DNA of 64,000 nucleotides from contig NZ_LIVM01000004.1 in NCBI RefSeq assembly GCF_001418685.1, forward strand, positions 1 through 64,000, given 5' to 3'. The notes below the pieces were generated by a model, which was given only the letters and a program-made list of their open reading frames with translations, made no database searches and had not been told where the DNA came from. This stretch comes from Apibacter mensalis (lineage in GTDB: Bacteria; Bacteroidota; Bacteroidia; Flavobacteriales; Weeksellaceae). Positions 12,659 through 26,173 of the stretch are shown here, in pieces. Each line of letters starts with the position of its first letter. Within the stretch, counting starts at the first letter, position 1. The position numbers were made by a program, and so were the translations under genes.

Positions 12659-15600
12659 CTATGAAATAATATGAGCCATGGTATTAAAATAACTACAAGA
12701 AGCCCACAAATTTTTATTTCCTATCACATAAAACCGTTTTTTTGCCCTGGTTAAAGCCACATTCAACATATTAGGTTTTTGAGAAGCCCAATTTCTAGCT
12801 CCTGCAGTAGCCGGATTACCCCCTAAAACAAAAAAGACAACGTCGGCCTCTTTTCCCTGAAATGTATGTATGGTTCCGCAAGAAATAGTTTTCTGTGTTT
12901 CAAACACTTCCTTACAATATTCGGCAACCGACTTGAAGGGGGAAATAACGTAAATTTTACCCGAATAATGTTTTTGCAATTCCTTAATTTTGGTCTTAAG
13001 CAATTCGATTTCCTCCAAAATAACATGTTTATTATAAGGCGAAGAGGCACATTCAACGTGAAACCAGGCGGATGGACCCATAAATTCTTTATTTGAAATT
13101 TCATGGACCGCATTTACCATTTGATTACCATATGCAATCTTATTGGCAATAGTAAACATCGGATCCTCACACCTTCTATGTGCACGAAGTGGAAAACCTG
13201 TCCAAACTTTTTCTTCAGAATTTCCAACCTGCATATAAGTTCCCGATAAAGAAACCCTATCTGCTAATTGTTGAACGGAGACTTTACAAGGAGACCATGC
13301 GGTATCCACCTCACATTCATTCCTTAACCGGGCCACTAATTTTTCGGGGATAGTAACCACGGGCTCTACCTGTAGCGGATCACCTACAATTACGCATCGT
13401 TTGGATCGGTGAATCAGTCCTACGGCAGCTTGAGGAGTTGCTTGTCCGGCCTCATCAATTAGTAGCCATCCTATTTGATTTCTATCGATATTTTTGAATA
13501 AACGGCTTGCGGATGCTAATGTTGTTGATACAACCGGTACACATAAAAAAAATGTATCCCATAAATTTTGGTACATATCTCCTCTAACAGTAACCCAGCC
13601 TGAAAGCATTTCAAAAAATGCGGATAAATTATTTCTTATTTTCTTTGCGTTTACTAAAATAGCATCTTTATGCAACTCAAGTGCAGTAATAAATATTTTA
13701 CTTCTTAAAGTTGCTATTTTAGGAGAGTGATAGGGATTTAAAAGATGAATTTCATTCAATTCTTTTTGCCAAAAATCGACGTCAACAATATTTTTCGGAT
13801 CTATTTCGTATTTTTGAATTAAAATTTCTTGAGATTTTTTATATTCAGCGAAGAATGTATTCAGCTCCGATAATTTTTTGTTGATAATTTCTTTTTGGTT
13901 TGATAATTCTTCGGATCTATTTCTGTTTAAATCTAGTTTTTTTCTTAGGTTATCTAATGATGTATCCAGCGACTGTAATTTAATGCTAAAGCTTTTTGTT
14001 TTAAATAGCCATTGTTGGTAATTGGCAGTTGAAAATAGTCTTTGAAAAAAGAAAAAACTAGGTTTTTGTTGTAAGTGAAGCTTTAATAAATCTTGCACCC
14101 TATCAGCATCCTGTTTGGTAACATTCTCTTGTTTTTGCAGATTCGTTTTCTCTATCGAAAGTTCAGATAAATACTCAATAATTTTGGCAAGATCATTTTT
14201 GAGATGAATTTCTTTTTCCTTGTTTTGGATATACTTTGGGAGCAATTTATGGAATGAACTTGCCAGTTTCTTAAAGTCATCAAACTCTTTTACTAAAGAT
14301 TTAAATAACTTATTATGTTTGATAAAAGAGCCTTGGTAGATATGGGTTTTATCATGTGTTGGATCTTTGTAAATATCATAAAGCAAATTATAAAAACCTA
14401 GCTGCTCATCCGATTCTTCCGATTTCCAAAAAGCTTTTCTAAACGATTCCCTGTTTTTCATATTTCCCAAAGCAGCTGCGATGGCTCCCCAGTTTTCCTC
14501 AGCTGTTAAAGATTGTGAGCAGCCGGCGAAATAATCAACAGCTGGAAAATGGTCTTTATCAATTCCTTTTTTTTGAGGCAGTTCTTTACTTATATTTTCT
14601 ACTGCCGCATTGTTATTACTGGCTACCACTATGCCAAAATTATTTTTCAGAGATTGCTTTAAATTATAAGTATAACTAACATATCCGCCTTCTTTTTCAA
14701 TTTTGGTATATCCTTTTTTAAATAGATGATCACATCCTAGGTCCGAAATAATTTTTGCTCTTTCAACAATTATTTCGGCAATAATATCTTTTAATAGGGT
14801 AGTTTTCCCTGTTCCCGGAGGCCCATTGAGCCCTTGTAGCCCTTCATTGTTTCTTAAATTTGAAAAAATTGAATTAACAGCACCCATTTGTGCGGAATAA
14901 AGCCCATATTCAATATGTGAAGGCCACCTTCCACTAGTTATGGAATTAGGGTTAAAACTGTCAACTAGAAACGCTTTATTTTGAATCAAATCTTTTCTTT
15001 TTTCAACAGGCGGAGCTAACTTTAAATAGGCACGAAGAGCGCTTCCTAATTTATTCTCTTCAATATCAGATAGATAGTTGAGGTCATTTAAATAAAAACT
15101 ATTAAGAAATCCGATATTCATTTCACTGTCTTTAGGGACAATTTCGGCTAGAACATAAATTCCAATAGTGTGTTTCCACCATGTATTGATACCTTTTAAA
15201 TACTCAATCTCTTTGTGAAGGTGTTCCCATAAAACCACATCACCTTTATAAACCTCTTTTCCGGCAATTTCTACCCATTTAAAGTTATATCTGTCTTGGA
15301 AATCGCTTTGGGATACTTCCAAATCATAACTAACAGAGGAAAGATCTGTTTTACGTTCTAACGCACGGATTCCAAATATATAGCTGGCTATTATATAAGT
15401 TTCTTGATGAGGGATACCTTCCTCATCTAAAATCAGAGCCGATAAACAAGTAAAACCACTCACAGGCTCTTCCCAATCGTTTGTATCGTCTATTTTTACT
15501 AAACTATTGAGATGATCCACAACTACTTTCTTCTTAATTTTCCCAAAAACTAACGTATATCGCCACTTATAATTTTTCTTTAAGGGTTTATTAGGTTGAA

Positions 15601-15709
15601 GCCATGGAAGAGGATTTCCGGGGTTAATCAAATTGGTATTTTTATTGAAATCCGGAAGATTAAATATCTCTACATTTCTCCAGAATTTAAGTATAGGTTG
15701 TGGTTTCAA
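12659..15709 (-). CDS. Superfamily 1 helicase (UPF1/DNA2-like AAA domains), putative defence gene
   Basis: 1016 residues. An uncharacterised N-terminal third is followed by a helicase core. The Walker A motif is GPPGTGKTTLLKD (near residue 295), then a long coiled-coil insertion (about 480-640). After it come the Walker B motif LLIDEAGQATPQAAVG, the following VGDPLQVEPV, PLRAHRRCEDPMF, the C-terminal TIHTFQGKEADVVFF, and motif VI LNVALTRAKKRFYVIG. This is the UPF1-like branch of SF1, with translocation on nucleic acid powered by ATP. Long stand-alone members are common in defence islands. Here the gene lies downstream of a PD-(D/E)XK-DUF5655 gene and a restriction-methylation pair on the same strand. 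A gap of about 460 bp to the nuclease gene leaves open whether they work together. Confidence 0.85.
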   Translation of the reverse strand: MKPQPILKFWRNVEIFNLPDFNKNTNLINPGNPLPWLQPNKPLKKNYKWRYTLVFGKIKKKVVVDHLNSLVKIDDTNDWEEPVSGFTCLSALILDEEGIPHQETYIIASYIFGIRALERKTDLSSVSYDLEVSQSDFQDRYNFKWVEIAGKEVYKGDVVLWEHLHKEIEYLKGINTWWKHTIGIYVLAEIVPKDSEMNIGFLNSFYLNDLNYLSDIEENKLGSALRAYLKLAPPVEKRKDLIQNKAFLVDSFNPNSITSGRWPSHIEYGLYSAQMGAVNSIFSNLRNNEGLQGLNGPPGTGKTTLLKDIIAEIIVERAKIISDLGCDHLFKKGYTKIEKEGGYVSYTYNLKQSLKNNFGIVVASNNNAAVENISKELPQKKGIDKDHFPAVDYFAGCSQSLTAEENWGAIAAALGNMKNRESFRKAFWKSEESDEQLGFYNLLYDIYKDPTHDKTHIYQGSFIKHNKLFKSLVKEFDDFKKLASSFHKLLPKYIQNKEKEIHLKNDLAKIIEYLSELSIEKTNLQKQENVTKQDADRVQDLLKLHLQQKPSFFFFQRLFSTANYQQWLFKTKSFSIKLQSLDTSLDNLRKKLDLNRNRSEELSNQKEIINKKLSELNTFFAEYKKSQEILIQKYEIDPKNIVDVDFWQKELNEIHLLNPYHSPKIATLRSKIFITALELHKDAILVNAKKIRNNLSAFFEMLSGWVTVRGDMYQNLWDTFFLCVPVVSTTLASASRLFKNIDRNQIGWLLIDEAGQATPQAAVGLIHRSKRCVIVGDPLQVEPVVTIPEKLVARLRNECEVDTAWSPCKVSVQQLADRVSLSGTYMQVGNSEEKVWTGFPLRAHRRCEDPMFTIANKIAYGNQMVNAVHEISNKEFMGPSAWFHVECASSPYNKHVILEEIELLKTKIKELQKHYSGKIYVISPFKSVAEYCKEVFETQKTISCGTIHTFQGKEADVVFFVLGGNPATAGARNWASQKPNMLNVALTRAKKRFYVIGNKNLWASCSYFNTMAHIIS

Positions 15710-16169: not shown

Positions 16170-17078
16170 TTATAAAGCTTGTTTAACTAAACTCATTATA
16201 TATTCAAGGTTATCTGTATTGGATACATGTAGTTCATAATCTCCATTGCCATGATGACCTTTTGAGGAAGCATCAACAGCCAGTTTGCGAGGGTCATTTA
16301 GTTCTCCTTTCTTCATATTCAGCCAAAGAATAAGATTTTTATGTTGAATACGAATATCCACAATATTTTTATCTTTTTTAAAAGCGATATACATTTTTTT
16401 AGGTACCACCTCGATATCACTTGATAAATTTAATATGGCTAATTTAAAGGTTTCATATAATTCTTTTATTTCTTCCGTTTTTCCTTCTAAATGCATTTCT
16501 TCCGTATAAACCTTAATTTGCTCAACTACCTTGTTTATTTCAGAATCATCATTAGAAGACTGTACTTGCTTAAAACTTGGTGCAGCCTGTGATTTTTTTA
16601 TTGGATTAATTACTATTATACTACTTTCAAACTGTTTGATTTCCCACAACTCAATAGGTAGATTTTTAAAGTTGGAAGATTGTTTTTGAAAGTTTGTGAA
16701 GGACGGAGCAACGAATATGATCTTGCTTTGTGACCAATCCACATCATCACGTTTTAGATTTTTATTACAAGACTTATTATATTCTACAATAAAGTCAGAT
16801 TTATACTCCAACATCAAGTTTAAATATGATATTCCTTGGTCTATTACGCTATAGTTTCGATCTCGCTTGTATTCGATAATAACAAACGATTTGCTTTCCT
16901 CATCAAAAGCCAATGTATCGAATCTTACATTTTTCAATGAGAATTCTGTTTTAATAAGTTTGAATCCTGTAATTTGTTCTAAGTTTGCTTCAAATAATCT
17001 TTGTATATCTTTTTCCAGTTTAAAAGGTTTTTCTTTTAAACCCGATAAGGAGCCTTTCTGTTTTAGGTAGAGTTGCAT
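16170..17078 (-). CDS. PD-(D/E)XK nuclease-like protein with C-terminal DUF5655
   Basis: 302 residues. The N-terminal half has the restriction-endonuclease-like pattern RFDTLAFDEESKSFVIIEYK: an aspartate, then E-x-K on the next strand, followed by the helix VIDQGISYL carrying the usual Gln. The C-terminal 110 residues match DUF5655 (for example KKMYIAFKKDKNIVDIRIQHKNLILWLN), a domain often attached to such nucleases. The catalytic residues look intact, so it is probably an active DNA nuclease. It lies 12 bp downstream of the specificity gene hsdS on the same strand, so it is likely cotranscribed with the BcgI-like system as an accessory effector or second nuclease. Confidence 0.82.
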   Translation of the reverse strand: MQLYLKQKGSLSGLKEKPFKLEKDIQRLFEANLEQITGFKLIKTEFSLKNVRFDTLAFDEESKSFVIIEYKRDRNYSVIDQGISYLNLMLEYKSDFIVEYNKSCNKNLKRDDVDWSQSKIIFVAPSFTNFQKQSSNFKNLPIELWEIKQFESSIIVINPIKKSQAAPSFKQVQSSNDDSEINKVVEQIKVYTEEMHLEGKTEEIKELYETFKLAILNLSSDIEVVPKKMYIAFKKDKNIVDIRIQHKNLILWLNMKKGELNDPRKLAVDASSKGHHGNGDYELHVSNTDNLEYIMSLVKQAL

Positions 17079-17090
17079 AAGAATAAGAAG

Positions 17091-18218
17091 TTAATTATTT
17101 TTATTTACTATAGTTTTTGTTGCTGCAATTTTTTTATCAGCATATAAAATAACATCTCTAATTACTAATTTCTGAATGGCAGAAATAAATGTTTCCATTG
17201 CGTCGTAATAAGGTTGATAATTATTAACAGGTAAAAATATTTTATCTATTTGAATCTTCTTATTACTTATACTATCTCCCCAAGAATATTTATGTTTCAA
17301 GCTTTTATTAATACAAGTGGCTAAATATAAGTAATTAGATTTGTTTTTTTCTTCTTTCTTTAGATAAAGTGCTAAATTATGACTATCATTTGAATAAAAA
17401 TCCTTTTCTTGATAGGTTACAGTAAACGTTTTTCCTCCAATAAAAATACAATTACCTTTATCTAAATATTTTTCATCGTAAGAAATATAAGAGCTCACAG
17501 CATTATTTGTTATGCTTGCACATAAATAAGGCGTTTTCCCACTATTTTCAACAATATCCCTTGATAAAATATTTCCTGTATTTTTTACATCAAAAATATC
17601 AATAACATTAAATTTTCTAAATTTTAATTTTTCAAAATCATCTAAAGCTTGTTGTTCTTCTTTTGTTAAAGTGTAATCTTTTAAACCTGTAACAGATAAA
17701 TAGGCTTCCAGCTCCGCTATACGCTCCGCTTCCAGCTCCGCTATAAAATTTTCCATAAAATTAAAATCAATCGTATCATTTTTTATTGGGAGTTTGATTT
17801 TAATTTTATTTAATTTTGCTTCTGAAACAGTATTATTATAACCAAAAGATAACATTTTTTTATTTAAAGCACTAACGAAAACTAAGCCAGTATTTTTATT
17901 TTCTATAAAATTTTCTTTTGCGGTTAATACAAGGACGCCATCTGTTGTAATAAAATCTTTCTCTTGATAATAAACTATACCTGTTTGTCTTCCAATGATT
18001 AAAGAATTTCCCTTGAATATTTTATGATTTTGAGGTTTTACTGTATCTACAAAGCCATTATTATTGTTGTTTTGAGCTATGAAGCAAATACCTTTAGAGT
18101 CGTGAATAAGTTCTTTTTGGTTTGAAATATTCCCCCGATTAATATCAAATAGATCCCCAATTTTAAATTCGCCCCACTTAACTTCTTGCAGCTTTTTGCT
18201 AAGTGAGGCATCTACTTT
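17091..18218 (-). CDS. hsdS: Restriction specificity subunit without its own start codon (probable -1 frameshift product of the upstream gene)
   Basis: The frame is open from a stop at 18237-18239 down to 17091, giving about 375 residues with two target-recognition domains. The first begins VKWGEFKIGDLFDI and has IGRQTGIVYYQEKDFITTDG. The second begins LKFRKFNVIDIFDV and has IGGKTFTVTYQEKDFYSNDS. A helical spacer with an eight-residue repeat, IAELEAER, lies between them. The first in-frame ATG is at 17855, which would lose the whole first recognition domain. GTG and TTG are also absent near the front; only a rare CTG or ATT could serve. The gene begins in the -1 frame of the methylase gene, exactly at a slippery heptamer followed by a hairpin, so translation by frameshifting is the best explanation. 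A one-base indel making a dead gene is the alternative. Confidence 0.82.
   Translation of the reverse strand, partial: KVDASLSKKLQEVKWGEFKIGDLFDINRGNISNQKELIHDSKGICFIAQNNNNNGFVDTVKPQNHKIFKGNSLIIGRQTGIVYYQEKDFITTDGVLVLTAKENFIENKNTGLVFVSALNKKMLSFGYNNTVSEAKLNKIKIKLPIKNDTIDFNFMENFIAELEAERIAELEAYLSVTGLKDYTLTKEEQQALDDFEKLKFRKFNVIDIFDVKNTGNILSRDIVENSGKTPYLCASITNNAVSSYISYDEKYLDKGNCIFIGGKTFTVTYQEKDFYSNDSHNLALYLKKEEKNKSNYLYLATCINKSLKHKYSWGDSISNKKIQIDKIFLPVNNYQPYYDAMETFISAIQKLVIRDVILYADKKIAATKTIVNKNN
17704..17745 (-). repeat. 24-bp in-frame repeat in the hsdS spacer
   Basis: The string gcttccagctccgctata occurs at 17704-17721 and 17728-17745, 24 bp apart, and encodes IAELEA twice. It lies in the helical spacer between the two recognition domains. 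Changes in copy number would alter the spacer length and hence the gap in the DNA target, as known for EcoR124-type enzymes. Confidence 0.8.
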
Positions 18219-18221
18219 CCC
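18171..18221 (-). promoter_or_regulatory. Putative -1 programmed ribosomal frameshift signal
   Basis: Read on the minus strand. The methylase frame ends CCG GGA AAG TAG. This contains the heptamer G GGA AAG (18221-18215), a perfect X XXY YYZ slippery site in which both tRNAs can re-pair one base back. After a 5-base spacer (TAGAT) come the arms GCCTCACTTAGC (18209-18198) and GTTAAGTGGGGC (18182-18171). These form a 12-bp stem with two G-U pairs and a 15-base loop. After the slip the ribosome reads GGG AAA GTA GAT and enters the hsdS frame. The geometry is that of known -1 frameshift signals; use in the cell is inferred. Confidence 0.65.
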
Positions 18222-20263
18222 GGGCTTTCTTCTTCTTTATTTTGTTGCTTTAGTAAATTGGAGACTTCCCAAGCCAAATAGTCGCTAACCGTTTTCTTAA
18301 AGTCTTGTAATGTCGGTTTGGTATCGATTGGTGCGCTTTGGTTCCAATCAGCGCCATTTTCAGGATCTATGGTATTTTCGTAATATTCTTTATCGGTAAA
18401 AATATTAAGTTTACTCCGGCCAAAACGTACCAAGTTGACTAATTCTTGATAGCGTTCTATCGCTCTGTCTGTATCTTTTAAATTGTTACTTGCTTTTTTG
18501 CGGTTAGTTCGTGTGTACCCGTCGTTTGAGAAATCAATAAACTTCACCATTTCATCTTTTTCATGCTTTTCATTTATTTTAAACACATAGATATTTGTTT
18601 GTACGCTTGATTTGCCAATAAATAAATCAATAGGCATTTTTATACTGGCCAGAAGCGTATGTTTTTTTAAAATTCTTTGATTGTATTCTTTTGCTTTACC
18701 GGAACCGGCGGAATTTTGTATAATTATGGCTGCATACCCTTTATTCATCATATTAAGCGCTTTTTCTACAAAAATCATCCCATTACCTTTTGCAGAATAA
18801 GGCGGGTTGAGTATAAAAGCATCTGCTGGAAATTTTTCACTCGGTTTTCCAAAGCCGTAATTACCGTCAAAGTCGGTTAAGGAGTTTTTATTCAGAATGT
18901 TTGAGCTTCCGTCTCCCATTAAGATCATATTTAAAATTGCCAACATATATACATTGGAAAGGACTTCTAAACCCAGCAATTGTTCGGCTTTTATTTGAAT
19001 CTCTTTTTGCTTAAGTTCATCCGGTGATGTAGTAGTGTTTTTAGCATCATTCAACATTTCGTTCATTGCGGCAACAAGTAAGCCCGCAGATCCTGTTGCA
19101 AAATCCCAAACATAGGAGTCTTTATTTATTCGTGCCAATTTTACTAAAAGGGTAGCAACATACGAAGGTGTGAGCACTACGTCGTTAAGTTTATCTTGAG
19201 TAAAACCTAACCAAGAATACATTTCATTAAAGAGTTTTCCCGTAAAATCAGTCGTTAACCCAATTTTATAATAAATACCTAAATCATCAATAATTTTAGC
19301 AAACACTCTTTTTAACTGAGATTCCCCATTGCTGACTTTATTGATGTTTTCGGTAGTAAGAGTATTTTGCAAAGTTCTTAAAATAAGATCTTTTTTTGCT
19401 TTAGGGAGCTGTTTTTCTTCCAAAAAGGCTTGGATTTTTCTAACGATTATGTCTCCATCTGTATTACCTTTTTCGATAGACGATTTTAAATCTTCTTTTT
19501 CAAGAGGCGCAACTTTGCCTGGTATCCCCAGAGTTGCAATAATAGAAGCAGCAACCAGATAGACTCGATCGTTTTCTCCTAATCCTTTTTCATTTTGGTA
19601 TATATCATTATTAAGCTTTACCAGACTCGCGTTAATTTCTCTTTCACGTTGTTCTTTGAGTTTCTCAATCTCTTCTTGTGTTAGGCTTAACGATTTTACT
19701 TGCTTGATAAAGCTATCAAAGTTTTCCCTTTTCAAAAAAGATAAGTCTGAAAATTCGCCAACTTTTTGGCCAATCCCAAAATTACTTTTTGAAACATAAT
19801 AAACACCTATTTGATATTGTATTTTTTCATTTTCGTCTTTATAACCAGTCATCCCGATAGCGATAATATCGGTGTAACTGGTATGGTGCAGTATAGCATT
19901 AGCATAATGCACGGCACCGTTTACTGCATAGGAATTGATATTTTTAAAATAGGGGTCATTTTTTGCCGTTCTATTCTCAACTTGTCCTTGATTATCAAGC
20001 TTTACGAGTTTATTTTTATATCCTTTATATTCAATAAGAATAGGGTAAAAATTCATATTTTCATGTTGTAGCAACAATTTTACATCGGGGCGATTTGCAC
20101 CGCTTCCGCCGTTTTTAGTAAAGTAATCGGAAAGCGCTTTATCTATTTCAGTATTTAATGATTCTTGTTCTAATTTATAGTCTAATTGATATGATTTAAG
20201 CCAACCGTTTGCTAAATCCGCAATATTGGGTTCGATTGATTGCGCTGTTTTTTTTTCTCTCAT
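18212..20263 (-). CDS. BcgI-like restriction-methylation subunit (nuclease plus N6-adenine methyltransferase)
   Basis: 683 residues from the ATG at 20263; a TTG at 20293 would add ten. The N-terminal 200 residues carry a PD-(D/E)XK-like nuclease core. Numbered from the TTG, the aspartate is in RPD at 70 and the E-x-K is in LIEYKG at 88-90. A helical linker follows, then an N6-adenine methyltransferase domain with motif I DFATGSAGLL and catalytic motif IV NPPY in FILNPPYSAKG. Nuclease and methylase in one chain with a separate specificity subunit is the design of BcgI-type (type IIB) enzymes. These cut without a separate HsdR, and none is encoded beside this gene. The C-terminus ends at a TAG preceded by a slippery sequence that leads into hsdS. 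Confidence 0.87.
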   Translation of the reverse strand: MREKKTAQSIEPNIADLANGWLKSYQLDYKLEQESLNTEIDKALSDYFTKNGGSGANRPDVKLLLQHENMNFYPILIEYKGYKNKLVKLDNQGQVENRTAKNDPYFKNINSYAVNGAVHYANAILHHTSYTDIIAIGMTGYKDENEKIQYQIGVYYVSKSNFGIGQKVGEFSDLSFLKRENFDSFIKQVKSLSLTQEEIEKLKEQREREINASLVKLNNDIYQNEKGLGENDRVYLVAASIIATLGIPGKVAPLEKEDLKSSIEKGNTDGDIIVRKIQAFLEEKQLPKAKKDLILRTLQNTLTTENINKVSNGESQLKRVFAKIIDDLGIYYKIGLTTDFTGKLFNEMYSWLGFTQDKLNDVVLTPSYVATLLVKLARINKDSYVWDFATGSAGLLVAAMNEMLNDAKNTTTSPDELKQKEIQIKAEQLLGLEVLSNVYMLAILNMILMGDGSSNILNKNSLTDFDGNYGFGKPSEKFPADAFILNPPYSAKGNGMIFVEKALNMMNKGYAAIIIQNSAGSGKAKEYNQRILKKHTLLASIKMPIDLFIGKSSVQTNIYVFKINEKHEKDEMVKFIDFSNDGYTRTNRKKASNNLKDTDRAIERYQELVNLVRFGRSKLNIFTDKEYYENTIDPENGADWNQSAPIDTKPTLQDFKKTVSDYLAWEVSNLLKQQNKEEESPGK

Positions 20264-20290: not shown

Positions 20291-20298
20291 CAAAAATA
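20291..20298 (-). promoter_or_regulatory. Possible -7 element for the BcgI-like operon
   Basis: On the minus strand the bases read TATTTTTG, fitting TAnnTTTG, and overlap the alternative TTG start at 20293. If used, the transcript would begin just downstream and the ATG at 20263 would be the true start. No good -33 TTG is visible. Confidence 0.3.
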
Positions 20299-21292: not shown

Positions 21293-22834
21293 ATGACGAG
21301 CATGATTCAACGCGATCAACTACAACGACAAATTTGGAAAATTGCCGACGAAGTCCGTGGTGCTGTTGATGGTTGGGATTTTAAACAATATGTACTTGGT
21401 TCTTTGTTTTATCGCTTTATTAGTGAGAATTTTGCCAATTATATTGAAGGTGGCGATGAGAGTATCGATTACAGCACATTACCCGACGATGTCATTACCG
21501 ATGAAGTTAAAAAAGACGCAATAAAAACCAAAGGCTATTTTATTTATCCTAGCCAATTATTTTGTAAAATGGTAGCTCAGGCCAATACCAATTCAAGTTT
21601 AAATACTGATTTGGCCAATATTTTTAATGCGATTGAAAGTTCAGCTAATGGTTACCCGTCAGAAAGCGATATTAAAGGATTATTTGCCGATTTTGATACC
21701 ACCAGTAACCGATTAGGTAATACAGTTGCCGATAAAAACAAACGGTTAGCTGCGGTACTTAATGGTGTTGCCGAACTGGATTTTGGTGATTTTGCAGACC
21801 ATAAAATCGATCTGTTTGGCGATGCTTATGAGTTTTTGATCTCTAATTATGCCTCGAACGCCGGTAAATCGGGAGGTGAGTTTTTTACCCCGCCGAATGT
21901 GTCCAGGCTGATCTCACAACTCGCCTTACATAATCAAAAAAAGGTCAATAAAATCTATGATCCGGCTGCAGGATCTGGCTCTTTATTGTTACAAGCAAAA
22001 AAACAGTTTGACGAACATATTATTGAGGATGGATTCTTCGGTCAAGAAATCAACCATACTACCTATAACCTTGCTCGAATGAATATGTTTTTACACAATA
22101 TCAACTATGATAAATTCGAAATTGCCTTAGGGGACACACTACTTAATCCAAAATTTGGCAACGAAAAGCCATTTGATGCCATTGTTTCTAACCCACCCTA
22201 TTCAATTAAATGGATTGGCAGTGATGATCCAACCTTAATTAATGATGACCGATACGCACCTGCCGGTGTGCTAGCCCCCAAATCGAAAGCCGATTTTGCC
22301 TTTATTATGCATGCATTAAGTTACCTGTCCGATCGCGGTCGCGCGGCAATTGTTACCTTTCCGGGGATATTTTATCGTGGCGGTGCGGAACAAAAAATCC
22401 GTAAATATTTAATCGACAATCATTATATTGAAACGGTAATCTCGCTCGCACCCAACTTATTTTATGGCACCTCGATTGCGGTTAATATTCTGGTGCTTGC
22501 TAAAAATAAAACCGTCAAAACCACACAATTTATTGATGCTAGCAAACTGTTTAAGAAAGAGACCAATAATAATGTCCTCACTGATGAACATATTCAACAG
22601 ATTATGCAAGTATTTGCTAGCAAACAAGATATCGAATATTTTGCCAAATCGGTTGATAATCAAACCATTGCCGACAATGATTATAATTTAGCGGTCAGTT
22701 CGTATGTGGAAGCCGAAGATACCCGTGAAGTGATTGATATCAAACAGCTTAATGCCAACATTGCCGAAACGGTAAAAAAAATAAACACACTTCGTGCTGA
22801 TATAGATGAAATAATTAAAGAGATTGAAGCATGA
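21293..22834 (+). CDS. hsdM: Type I restriction-modification methyltransferase subunit HsdM
   Basis: 513 residues. The N-terminal domain begins [20 protein letters not shown]. The methyltransferase domain has motif [20 protein letters not shown] and catalytic motif IV NPPY in [11 protein letters not shown]. HsdM binds S-adenosylmethionine and, with HsdS, methylates adenine in the host target; it is the PrrA position of the prr locus. Codon choice (frequent GCC, ACC, GGC and CGT) differs clearly from the surrounding AT-rich genes and resembles gammaproteobacterial DNA. The stop overlaps the next start as ATGA. A second ATG lies three codons downstream. Confidence 0.96.
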
Positions 22835-23835
22835 GTAATGATCATATCCTTATTTACCAGGATAATAACCAACCAATTCGCGTTGAGGCACGATTTGAAA
22901 ACGAAAATATTGGGTTAACTCAACGCCAAATGGTTGAGCTTTTTCAAACTGCGAAATCTACACTAAGCGAGCATATTAAAAATATTTATGCAAAGGGTGA
23001 ATTACTTCTTGAAGCAACGATTCGGAAAATCCGAACAGTTCAAGAAGAAAGCTGTCGGAATGTCACTAGAGAGTTAGAATATTACAATCTGGACATGATT
23101 ATTTCGCTGGGTTATCGAATTAACTCGAAAATAGCTGCCCAATTTCGCACTTGGGCAACAAGCATCCTTAAAGAGTACCTGAAAAAAGGGTTTGTGTTAA
23201 ATGACGACCGTTTAAAAAAATTAGGTGGTAACAGCTATTGGAAAGCACTTCTTGACCGTATCGGAGAGATTCGTTCTAGTGAAAAAGTAATGCATCGCCA
23301 AGTGTTGGATTTATATGCCACAGCGATTGATTATGAACCCAATACCAAAGCTAGCGCCGATTTTTTCAAAATAGTACAAAATAAATTACACTATGCAGCA
23401 CACGGCAATACCGCTAGTGAAATTATACATTTTAGAGTTGACAGTAATAAACCTTTTGCAGGATTAACTCACTTGAAAGGAAGCGGCCCGACACAAGCAG
23501 AAGCAAGGGTAGCCCAAAACTATTTAACTGAACAAGAATTACGAGCACTCAATAATCTGGTTCCAGCCTATTTTGATTTAGCGGAACTGAATGCCATGGA
23601 AGAACCTAAAATGCGGATGGTTGACTGTGTACGAGAATTAGATAATATTCTTTCATCTACAAGGCGCCAGTTACTCGATAATCCGGCTTCAATTTCTTAT
23701 CATCAAGCAGAAAACAAAGGCAAATTAGAATATAAAAAATTTAAAGCCCAAACGCTAGCCCCAGTGGAAGTTCCATATCTTAAGACTATAAACGCATTAG
23801 AGAAAAAAGCGAAAAAGGAAAGCCGCAAAAAATGA
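22831..23835 (+). CDS. rhuM: RhuM-family protein
   Basis: 334 residues of the RhuM (virulence_RhuM) family, named after a Salmonella pathogenicity-island gene of unknown role. The N-terminal domain looks like a winged-helix DNA-binding fold ([23 protein letters not shown]). The central signature [24 protein letters not shown] is shared with Bro-N-like and KilA-like proteins. The gene overlaps hsdM and hsdS by 4 bp on each side (ATGA), so it is translationally coupled within the restriction operon. Its place between hsdM and hsdS suggests a regulatory or accessory defence role, which is inference. Confidence 0.9.
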
Positions 23836-25055
23836 ATGATAGACTAAATATGCAAAATAGCATCGCGAAATTACTTGATAATGTTATAGTTGAGTGGAAG
23901 ACTTTGGGGGAAGTAATAAAATCTTTGAAAACGGGGCTAAATCCACGAAATAACTTTAAGTTGAATACATCCGATGCTATGAATTTCTATATAACTGTTC
24001 GAGAAATTCAGAATGGAAAGATTGTATTCCTTGATAAGACTGATAAAATTAATAATCAAGCTTTAGAGCTTATAAACAACCGCTCGAATTTAGAGGCTGG
24101 CGACATCTTATTTTCGGGGACAGGGACGGTAGGAAAAACAGCTGTTATTGATGAAAAACCTAAAAATTGGAATATCAAAGAAGGAGTCTATGTAATAAAA
24201 CCTGTTCAAGAAATAGTTATTTCAAAATACTTATCTCATTTATTTAATTCACAAGATATAGTAAATGAATATAGTAAAAAAATTGTTGGTTCTCCAGTTA
24301 TTAGTTTACCAATGAGTGAATTAAAAAAAATTCAAATCCCTATTCCTCCCCTACACATACAGACTGAAATTGCCCGTATTTTAGACTCATTCACAGCCTT
24401 CACCGCAGAGCTCACCGCAGAGCTTACGGCAGAGTCTACTGCACGGAAAAAACAATACAACTATTATCGAGATCAATTGTTGACCTTTCAAGAGGATGAG
24501 GTTGAGTGGAAGGCTTTAGGGGAGGTTGTAAACTATGAACAACCAACTAAGTACTTGGTGAAATCAACAAGTTATAGTGATAAATTTAAAACACCAGTCC
24601 TTACAGCTGGAAAAACGTTTATTCTTGGATTTACTGATGAAATTGATGGAATTTATAAAGCTTCAGAAACACCAGTCATTATTTTTGATGATTTTACAAC
24701 TGCGAATAAATGGGTTGATTTTAACTTCAAAGTAAAGTCATCTGCTATGAAAATGATTACTTCTATTGATGAATCTAAATATCTGCTAAAGTATATTTAT
24801 TACTGGCTAAATACACTTTCTGATACACGAGCTAATCACAATCATAAACGTCAATGGATTAGTAATTTTGCTAATAAAAAAGTTCCCATTCCCCCCCTCA
24901 AGGAACAAGCCCGTATTGTCGAAATATTAGACAAATTCGATGCGCTTACCAACTCAATCACCGAGGGGTTACTGCGTGAGATTGCCTTACGTCAAAAACA
25001 ATATGAGTATTATCGGAATTTATTATTAGACTTTCCCAAAGTGCAAGAATCATAA
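23832..25055 (+). CDS. hsdS: Type I restriction specificity subunit HsdS
   Basis: 407 residues with two target-recognition domains. The first starts VEWKTLGEVIKSLKTG and the second VEWKALGEVVNYEQPT; each is followed by a long helix ending in RKKQYNYYRDQLL and RQKQYEYYRNLLL. At the end of the first helix lie three TAEL-like repeats (TAELTAELTAES), the spacer repeat known from the type IC enzyme EcoR124. The recognition domains look less gammaproteobacterial in codon use than the conserved parts, as expected for domains exchanged by recombination. It overlaps rhuM by 4 bp and precedes prrC by 17 bp. Confidence 0.95.
   Translation: MNDRLNMQNSIAKLLDNVIVEWKTLGEVIKSLKTGLNPRNNFKLNTSDAMNFYITVREIQNGKIVFLDKTDKINNQALELINNRSNLEAGDILFSGTGTVGKTAVIDEKPKNWNIKEGVYVIKPVQEIVISKYLSHLFNSQDIVNEYSKKIVGSPVISLPMSELKKIQIPIPPLHIQTEIARILDSFTAFTAELTAELTAESTARKKQYNYYRDQLLTFQEDEVEWKALGEVVNYEQPTKYLVKSTSYSDKFKTPVLTAGKTFILGFTDEIDGIYKASETPVIIFDDFTTANKWVDFNFKVKSSAMKMITSIDESKYLLKYIYYWLNTLSDTRANHNHKRQWISNFANKKVPIPPLKEQARIVEILDKFDALTNSITEGLLREIALRQKQYEYYRNLLLDFPKVQES
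24402..24440 (+). repeat. 12-bp TAEL repeats in hsdS
   Basis: Units accgcagagctc (24402-24413), accgcagagctt (24414-24425) and acggcagagtct (24426-24437) follow one another directly, with the start of a fourth. Two versus three TAEL units is the difference between EcoR124I and EcoR124II targets, so copy number here probably sets the spacer length of the target. Confidence 0.88.
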
Positions 25056-25072
25056 GGTAGAGTTATAAAAAG

Positions 25073-26173
25073 ATGAATAGCCCATTAAGGAATATTGCTG
25101 AAAAGCTGGATAAAAACAATAAAAAAACCCAATTAATCTATGCCTTTAACGGTACCGGTAAAACACGTTTATCTCAAACCTTTAAAAATTTAATTATTTC
25201 GCAACGCAAAGGCAATCAAGAGGATCATGCCGCCTTAACAAGGCATAAAATCCTTTATTATAACGCTTTTACTGAGGATTTATTTGTTTGGGATAATGAT
25301 AAACACCAAGAGGGTGAACATCAATTAACCATACAACCGAACTCATTTACGGACTGGATTTTGAAAGACCAAGGACAAGACCAAAATATTGTTCGTTACT
25401 TTCAATCCTATACTCACCAAAGATTACTGCCGCATTTCAATGAGGATTTTTCCGCTATTACTTTTTCGCTGGCAGGAGATAATGAGCAGCGTATGGATAA
25501 TATTAAAATCTCCAAAGGCGAGGAAAACAATTTAATTTGGAGTATTTTTTTCACGCTCATTAACTTAGTGATTGCCGAGCGCAATATTGCGGAAAAAAGC
25601 GAGCGTTCCACTAATGAGTTTGACCAATTACGCTATATTTTTATTGATGACCCGGTTAGTTCATTGGACGAGAATCATCTGATTCAATTAGCGGTAGATA
25701 TTGCCCAATTAATCAAATCCAGTGAATCTGACATTAAATTTATTATTACGACCCATAACCCGCTGTTTTATAATGTACTTTATAATGAATTGAAGTTGCC
25801 AAACGGTTATATTTTAAGACGATTTGAGGACGGTGAATTTACATTAGAAGAGAAAAAAGGCGATTCAAACCGCTGTTTTTCCTATCATCTTTATTTAAAA
25901 CAGTTACTGCAAGAAGCGATTAAAGAAAATAAAATTGAAAAATATCATTTCACTCTATTACGCAACTTATATGAAAAAACCGCCGGTTTTTTAGGCTATC
26001 CGCAATGGTCAGACTTGTTGCCTGACGATAAACAACTTTACTTAACACGGATTATCAATTTCACCAGTCATTCAACTTTATCCCATGAAATGATTTCCGA
26101 ACCTTCTGAACCTGAAAAGCAAACGGTTGCCTTTTTACTGAACCATTTACTTGAAAAGTATAATTTTAAATAA
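25073..26173 (+). CDS. prrC: Anticodon nuclease PrrC
   Basis: 366 residues. The N-terminal ATPase domain has Walker A FNGTGKTRLS (about 24-33) and an ABC-type Walker B with D-loop, FIDDPVSSLDENH (about 190-203). The C-terminal nuclease domain has KKGDSNRCFSY (about 261-271), matching the PrrC segment that reads the tRNA-Lys wobble base. It also has Arg297, Glu301 (RNLYE) and His333 (NFTSHS). These keep exactly the spacing of the E. coli triad Arg320-Glu324-His356, as I recall it. PrrC cuts tRNA-Lys 5' of the wobble base once a phage inhibits the type I enzyme to which it is bound. The gene lies between hsdS and hsdR, the same order as in the E. coli prr locus. A ribosome-binding site (AAGG) is present about 20 bases upstream. 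Confidence 0.93.
   Translation: MNSPLRNIAEKLDKNNKKTQLIYAFNGTGKTRLSQTFKNLIISQRKGNQEDHAALTRHKILYYNAFTEDLFVWDNDKHQEGEHQLTIQPNSFTDWILKDQGQDQNIVRYFQSYTHQRLLPHFNEDFSAITFSLAGDNEQRMDNIKISKGEENNLIWSIFFTLINLVIAERNIAEKSERSTNEFDQLRYIFIDDPVSSLDENHLIQLAVDIAQLIKSSESDIKFIITTHNPLFYNVLYNELKLPNGYILRRFEDGEFTLEEKKGDSNRCFSYHLYLKQLLQEAIKENKIEKYHFTLLRNLYEKTAGFLGYPQWSDLLPDDKQLYLTRIINFTSHSTLSHEMISEPSEPEKQTVAFLLNHLLEKYNFK

Follow-up and report, generated by a model that had tools for sequence, protein, structure and literature searches.

How is the specificity subunit of a restriction-modification system made when its coding sequence lacks a start codon of its own? This question is raised by a locus on the minus strand of a 64,000-nt stretch of Apibacter mensalis DNA, the whole of which we refer to as the window. 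The nuclease-methyltransferase gene of this locus (RM; 18212..20263, minus strand) encodes 683 aa from an ATG at 20263, a start picked by comparison with relatives, or 693 aa from an alternative TTG at 20293, and its frame is open from upstream of 20293 through a TAG at 18214-18212. The RM protein matched the Pfam domain N6_Mtase (2.6e-22) and the PADLOC model REase_MTase_IIG (Type IIG restriction enzyme-methyltransferase; 1.4e-247), and a match to Pfam VRR_NUC was slightly under the Pfam cut-off (22.7 versus 23.8 bits). Among 77 aligned RM rows the nuclease motif PD...EYK was near-invariant (PD in 76 with one gap, E in 77, K in 76) and the methylase motif NPPY was present in all 77. The chain hence combines the PD-(D/E)XK nuclease and N6-adenine methylase motifs that define a BcgI-like RM protein, and its closest relatives are two Gilliamella copies. 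A phmmer search against PDB sequences gave no match for RM or for the specificity subunit at E 0.01.

The specificity (S) coding sequence (17091..18215, minus strand) lies in the -1 frame relative to RM and encodes 374 aa plus stop with two recognition domains. This frame opens 22 nt ahead of the RM stop and runs to 17094; the part assigned to S begins at a GTA codon that shares the last base of a heptamer at the RM end (see below). Scanned for ATG, GTG and TTG, the S frame contained none until +359 nt after the RM stop, deep within the first recognition domain. Since Pfam Methylase_S covers residues 14-173 of the -1 frame as counted from the heptamer, a start at the +359 ATG would remove most of that domain. 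The window offers no start for a complete S made independently of RM, and there is no single continuous R-M-S frame either, as the TAG at 18214-18212 interrupts it.

S also matched the PADLOC model Specificity_II (Type II specificity subunit). Its AlphaFold2 model has a mean pLDDT of 93.2 and is grouped by Foldseek with HsdS subunits and the S subunit of BsaXI. The front of S, for which relatives gave the consensus GKV...LNEKL..VEWGEY, is modelled as a helix (residues 6-13) and a strand (16-20) with a counterpart in domain 2 (helix 187-194, strand 201-205), while residues 1-4, coded at and just past the heptamer, appear as a low-confidence linker. The Methylase_S matches and the S model agree with the two recognition domains and helices expected of such a subunit. 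A near-tandem repeat, AELEAERIAELEA, is encoded at about 17700-17750 (minus strand) in the helix between the recognition domains and resembles the TAEL/LEAT repeats known from Type I S subunits (PMC6789123).

The RM gene ends in CCG GGA AAG TAG, in which the heptamer G_GGA_AAG (18215..18221, minus strand) is followed directly by the frame-0 stop TAG (18212..18214, minus strand). The heptamer conforms to the slippery pattern X_XXY_YYZ in phase with the upstream frame. Five nucleotides after it begins the 5′ arm of a stem (12 nt; 18198..18209, minus strand), which is separated by a 15-nt loop (18183-18197) from a 12-nt 3′ arm (18171..18182, minus strand); the arms form 10 Watson-Crick and 2 G-U pairs, and the fold energy was -18.8 kcal/mol over 71 nt (z -2.9). 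No SD-like stimulator was found upstream of the heptamer in the window. The original prediction had described just this arrangement: a methylase end with the heptamer G GGA AAG, two pairing 12-base arms with a 15-base loop five bases downstream, and an S frame without ATG, GTG or TTG near its front that is open up to the methylase end and encodes a complete first recognition domain. All of these features were recovered at the positions given here. The predicted fusion of about 1,060 residues would measure 1057 aa (683 + 374) if the ATG at 20263 is the start and 1067 aa if it is the TTG at 20293, with the junction SPGK-VDASLS, and the whole reading unit (17091..20263, minus strand) would yield free RM (683 aa) together with this inferred product.

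In the -1 frameshifting of dnaX and of IS3-type transposases, a slippery heptamer and a hairpin a few nucleotides downstream give rise to a short and a long product. We are highly confident that a -1 programmed ribosomal frameshift likewise joins RM and S of this BcgI-like (Type IIB/IIG) system, although slippage has not been shown by experiment and the case rests on comparative sequence evidence. Ribosomes at GGA AAG would face the frame-0 stop as the next codon and the hairpin 5 nt ahead. A fraction of them would slip back by one base onto GGG AAA and enter S to produce an RM-S fusion, whereas the non-slipping ribosomes would stop and release free RM. Because no start codon would give the whole first recognition domain, S is expected to be made only as the fusion. 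G_GGA_AAG has been called highly shift-prone in E. coli (PMC5009743). What the comparison of loci described in the following supports is the signal itself, selection acting on it, the -1 frame of S, and the absence of a conserved start.

A scan of GTDB species genomes yielded 106 relatives, the best 80 of which were kept; with the window these form 81 distinct loci (two records, L002 and L003, repeat L035 and L053). In 76 of the 81, RM ends at a frame-0 stop and S comes after it in the -1 frame. Of the other five, three (L073, L077, L103) fuse RM and S in frame, and in two (L105, L110) S lies in another frame and has an overlapping ATG; homologues of the sort that the original prediction had named as refuting it, with an intact overlapping ATG and one base more or fewer, are a minority. 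One of the fusions, L073, comes from a record named Candidatus Pacearchaeota archaeon; it has no stem and is the only archaeal-named copy in the set. The heptamer is GGGAAAG in 47 and GGGAAAA in 25 of the 76 loci (GGGAAAR in 72/76), and the X_XXY_YYZ rule is obeyed in 74, including L090 (A_AAA_AAA) and L109 (A_AAT_TTT); L095 and L099 have G_GAA_AAR, which violates the XXX half of the rule. As a measure of chance, the terminal 1800 nt of these 76 RM genes contained in-phase GGGAAAR at 18 of 45,448 other codon positions. The stop follows immediately after the heptamer in 75/76 loci, with one extra codon in L044, and in L066 an indel upstream in RM has left the signal unchanged.

Past the heptamer the -1 frame continues for at least 150 aa in 69/76 loci. 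The seven shorter ones either run into contig ends (L040, L065) or have an interrupted S (L033, L038, L061, L082, L101); among the latter, L038 gave no S-front match. Of 72 S frames with a length of 40 aa or more, supplied by 72 of the 76 loci, 67 matched Methylase_S. Judged by record names, many of which denote metagenome bins, the hosts belong to Pseudomonadota, Campylobacterota, Bacteroidota, Bacillota and Chloroflexota, and furthermore to Kiritimatiellota, Cyanobacteriota, Melainabacteria and Gracilibacteria. Given this spread over several phyla, the system seems to move horizontally with the signal carried along.

Further loci were found later on a plasmid (L114), on two viral contigs (L118, L119) and in E. 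coli prophages. Those on the plasmid and viral contigs have GGGAAAR, stop and stem, as does one E. coli junction type (L112, L113, L122) which is identical over 93 nt to that of phage L115. Two more E. coli types (L111 with L121 and L123, which show one difference; and L120) have A_AAA_AAG one codon ahead of the stop and different stems. Here the signal has been exchanged for another slip site, as maintenance by function rather than by descent would predict. Altogether, 30 of 5426 complete E. coli genomes had a DNA match to part of RM-S. The prophage loci L111 and L112 have closely related RMs with differing slip sites, stems and S parts, and the system lies near antiterminator Q and Hok genes. 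In the family of the Haemophilus aegyptius genome 16 of 140 genomes were matched, and 11 loci were new by their junctions (RM 37-83% identical). S is in the -1 frame in 11/11 of these, nine with GGGAAAR, one with A_AAA_AAA and one with A_CTA_AAG (L143), which like the G_GAA_AAR of L095 and L099 counts against the frameshift; in L143-L146 the RMs are merely 37-39% identical and S is still in -1. The family scan of genome G150 gave nothing new. The H. aegyptius locus itself (L106) has a -1 frame of 390 aa, the length of a two-domain S. We did not equate it with HaeIV, which is reported to be a single polypeptide from the same species and for which a review table gives a single recognition half (PMC3874165).

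What might such a shift be good for? The two-subunit Type IIB systems BcgI, BsaXI, BaeI and CspCI are BcgI-like in the same way as the system of the window, with an N-terminal nuclease and N6-adenine methylase in RM and a two-domain, HsdS-like S; their S is a separate polypeptide, whereas that of the window has no start and would depend on a -1 shift. BcgI has a ratio of 2RM:1S (PMC3874165), and BsaXI is (RM)2S (PMC11997821). In the single-chain Type IIB enzymes AloI, CjeI and TstI, R and M are united with two recognition domains as they would be in the -1 product of the RM-S locus, but each of these enzymes is one polypeptide from one gene, whereas the frameshift would supply free RM too. How AloI and CjeI act with 1RM:2TRD has been called a mystery (PMC3874165). 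One RM-S chain could pair with one free RM chain to give a 2RM:1S enzyme, and the slip efficiency would then set the ratio of free RM to RM-S subunits. We consider this stoichiometric role probable, if by no wide measure; it is inferred, and the slip rate, the effect on the ratio and the complex have not been shown. With similarly guarded confidence we suggest that a BcgI-like subfamily, present in several phyla and in E. coli prophages, uses frameshifting as a built-in stoichiometer and that an S-only product never exists. It would follow, again as the somewhat favoured reading, that a single mRNA assembles a covalently tethered 2RM:1S enzyme while databases list its S as truncated or arbitrarily started.

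It is also possible, though we think it rather unlikely, that the shift takes place but the fusion alone has a function; free RM would then be a mere by-product, and the system would resemble the single-chain AloI-like enzymes. AloI, CjeI and TstI do exist as single chains (PMC3874165, PMC4027205), and natural in-frame fusions occur within the clade. An engineered M-S fusion of EcoKI can be read both ways: it restricted in vivo without supplied M, which its authors blamed on proteolysis or stalled translation, but in vitro it showed activity only when free M was supplied (PMC3510504). A fusion that suffices alone would furthermore leave it surprising that in-frame fusion is rare (3/81) while the signal is kept in 76 loci.

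The predicted signal is preserved at the level of bases. In a codon alignment of the 77 RM gene rows the heptamer glycine is GGA in 71/71 rows, compared with 10-52% at 37 other conserved glycine columns, and the codon before this GGA ends in G in 70/70 rows across nine amino acids, where G is the third base in 13.4% of codons as background. RM proteins are at a median 77% identical and their shared 4-fold codons at a median of only 33%, so the silent sites have not been kept by recent descent. From the shared layout, the GGGAAAR heptamer in 72/76 loci and the covarying stem described below we conclude that the element is under nucleotide-level selection and is not the product of an indel or a sequencing error. 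Conservation merely for a C-terminal Gly-Lys peptide is ruled out by the codon data and by three loci of the H. aegyptius family (L133, L142, L144), in which the frame-0 stop comes four codons after the heptamer and inside the 5′ arm; in these the heptamer is evidently not kept merely for its adjacency to a stop. An SD-like motif upstream was present in 43/76 loci, compared with 30.2 ± 3.6 when synonymous codons were shuffled (0/1000 shuffles as high).

The stem was examined in a plain MAFFT alignment of the 76 junctions. Bases paired in 91.5% of 907 cells, and pairing fell to 30-55% when the partner was slid by 1-3 columns. Changes on both sides of a pair were seen in 56 cells versus 13.3 ± 5.2 in shuffled alignments (0/500 as high); the number of stem pairs with a change on both sides was not clearly above expectation (6 versus 3.6 ± 1.2, 35/500 as high). 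These shuffles ignore relatedness, and the loci that need no shift are the most useful control. By the energy of the best 50-nt folding window, the median of the signal-bearing loci was -19.0 kcal/mol and the weakest of them reached -12.4 kcal/mol (n=75), while the no-shift controls (three in-frame fusions, and two loci in the clade plus five distant ones with an S ATG) ranged from -3.9 to -10.0 kcal/mol. Among the loci compared, those that need a shift have the stem and those that can do without one lack it. Within RM genes, 0.26% of 380 same-size stretches folded at least as stably as the family median, and in a fixed folding window the fold was weak in L035 (-3.8) and L145 (-8.2). The 12-bp stem of the window with its 5-nt spacer and the covariation among relatives are what is expected of a stable RNA structure downstream of a slip site.

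The original prediction had proposed an alignment of homologous loci for conservation of the heptamer, the stem and the absence of a start codon. The first two were borne out, with GGGAAAR in 72/76 loci and a covarying stem after it, and the third only in part. No start is conserved, but ATG, GTG or TTG codons occur scattered in many relatives, and only 31/76 loci are free of all three between the point where the -1 frame opens and heptamer +30. In L074 and L092 an S-frame ATG sits at the junction itself (AAAATGA), which would permit ordinary coupling, and nine more of the 76 have an ATG at heptamer +21 to +30. A leucine encoded in the loop is present in 65/70 aligned rows with varying codons (TTA, TTG, CTG, CTA, CTT). 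Between the stop and the stem tip the -1 frame conserves protein and not a start, in keeping with reading from the heptamer onward. The RefSeq annotation of the E. coli copies gives a similar picture: S of L113 and L122 is marked as being without an N terminus, and in L111, L112, L120, L121 and L123 S starts at TTG, GTG, CTG or ATT at varying places. In L120 and L123 these are a CTG and an ATT in the -1 frame at differing distances from the RM stop, which indicates that the annotation pipeline finds no common start.

These observations bear on a second alternative, in which translation resumes after the RM stop, by reinitiation or coupling, at a non-standard or remote start codon and makes S as a separate subunit; stem and heptamer would then only aid the coupling. 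Coupling does occur among relatives. Five distant BcgI-like loci (L117, L124, L125, L126, L128) have an S ATG that overlaps the RM end by 4-17 nt, and to these the overlapping ATG of L105 and L110 and the ATGA at the junctions of L074 and L092 can be added. In EcoKI, hsdM and hsdS stand side by side in different frames like RM and S of the window, but they overlap by 1 nt and are translationally coupled, and the M-S fusion was obtained by mutagenesis (PMC3510504). The ATG after the TAG of the window is in frame 0 and not in the S frame, so that coupling of the hsdM-hsdS kind is not available there, and the first codon that might serve as a start lies, as described above, inside domain 1. Across the family no start position is conserved; the loop leucine is TTG in 23% and another Leu codon in most. 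Moreover, coupling would leave unexplained the invariant G before GGA, the lack of GGA synonyms, and the fact that most heptamer replacements still fit X_XXY_YYZ, and the stem is missing precisely where S has its own ATG. We therefore regard coupling as very unlikely.

Even less credible to us is that heptamer and inverted repeat act in the DNA and not as an RNA signal, for instance as a site at which S cassettes recombine. Related RMs are indeed found with different junctions and S parts (L111 versus L112, L109 versus L110), which implies that exchange near the junction does occur. A DNA element should however be kept in sequence, yet the stem changes by compensatory pairs. The heptamer replacements mostly obey the slip rule with S in -1, and the element is absent from in-frame fusions. 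That the junction is an indel, pseudogene or assembly error in an ancestral single RMS gene can be ruled out for practical purposes, since, even though in-frame fusions exist and 5/76 relatives have an interrupted S, the same layout recurs in 76/81 distinct loci, among them two Gilliamella assemblies (L031, L032; RM ~95% identical) that share the heptamer, the TAG and the -1 S frame.

With programmed frameshifting as the preferred reading, some inferences on the history of the family can be made. As five distant relatives (L117, L124-L126, L128) use an overlapping S ATG, a two-gene ancestor is plausible; frameshifting would have appeared at a later stage and then given way to fusion or, in L105 and L110, to a start codon of S itself. 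The signal is found in RMs 37-39% identical to that of the window, yet it is absent from L117 at 42% identity, and the order of events is therefore not fixed. Fusion arises in three places in a quick tree, in which many forks are weak and the outgroup branches are very long. Transfer of S, along with its junction, from one RM lineage to another is also possible. The RMs of L109 and L110 are near-identical, but one locus has A_AAT_TTT and a -1 S and the other an overlapping S ATG, and by this comparison they represent a natural swap between frameshifting and coupling.

The RM-S loci resemble dnaX and IS3-type frameshifting in the heptamer, the hairpin and, in part of the family, an SD-like motif, and some E. 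coli copies use A_AAA_AAG; they differ in that they belong to restriction-modification, have GGGAAAR as main motif, and would add a whole subunit by the shift. No report of a natural joining of RM and S by frameshifting was among the matches listed from the open-licence literature (REBASE and most subscription journals were outside the scope). The passages on restriction and methylases in Antonov 2013 (PMC3711429) and Atkins 2016 (PMC5009743) contain no such system, and the available passages of methylome papers on Haemophilus parasuis (PMC6211672) and N. gonorrhoeae (PMC6789123) do not mention RM/S frameshifting. Two candidate precedents were rejected: in H. pylori HpyUM032XIII the frameshift is a poly-G tract inside S (PMC4450513), and for the NsoJ138I C-REase fusion the authors weighed a -1 shift and saw no product (PMC3850674). 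The nearest published case among the matches listed is the engineered EcoKI fusion (PMC3510504). While -1 frameshifting and BcgI-like systems are each known, their combination is thus unreported in the open-licence literature among these matches.

If the proposal is true, a translational recoding step would be added to restriction-modification, and dozens of natural replicates would be available for studying G_GGA_AAG/A and hairpins in very different bacteria. A frameshift that delivers both partners would also be a testable answer to how an RM-S chain meets the 2RM:1S design. By inference, specificity predictions or models from truncated S entries would miss the front of domain 1, and RM and S cloned as separate genes could yield an inactive S.

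Several neighbouring genes also have matches to defence families. Directly downstream of S (16170-17078, minus strand) is a gene for a DUF5655 protein that weakly matches the NucS_C nuclease and also matches the PADLOC candidate defence family PDC-S18 (7.3e-138). A large helicase-like AAA protein with a PADLOC MkoC match (1.3e-73) is encoded at 12659-15709 (minus strand). On the other side a second R-M island adjoins (21293-26173, plus strand), with an HsdM-like methylase and a Type I specificity subunit, and furthermore a RhuM-family protein (PADLOC PDC-S05) and a PrrC-like protein (PADLOC PrrC, 3.4e-142).
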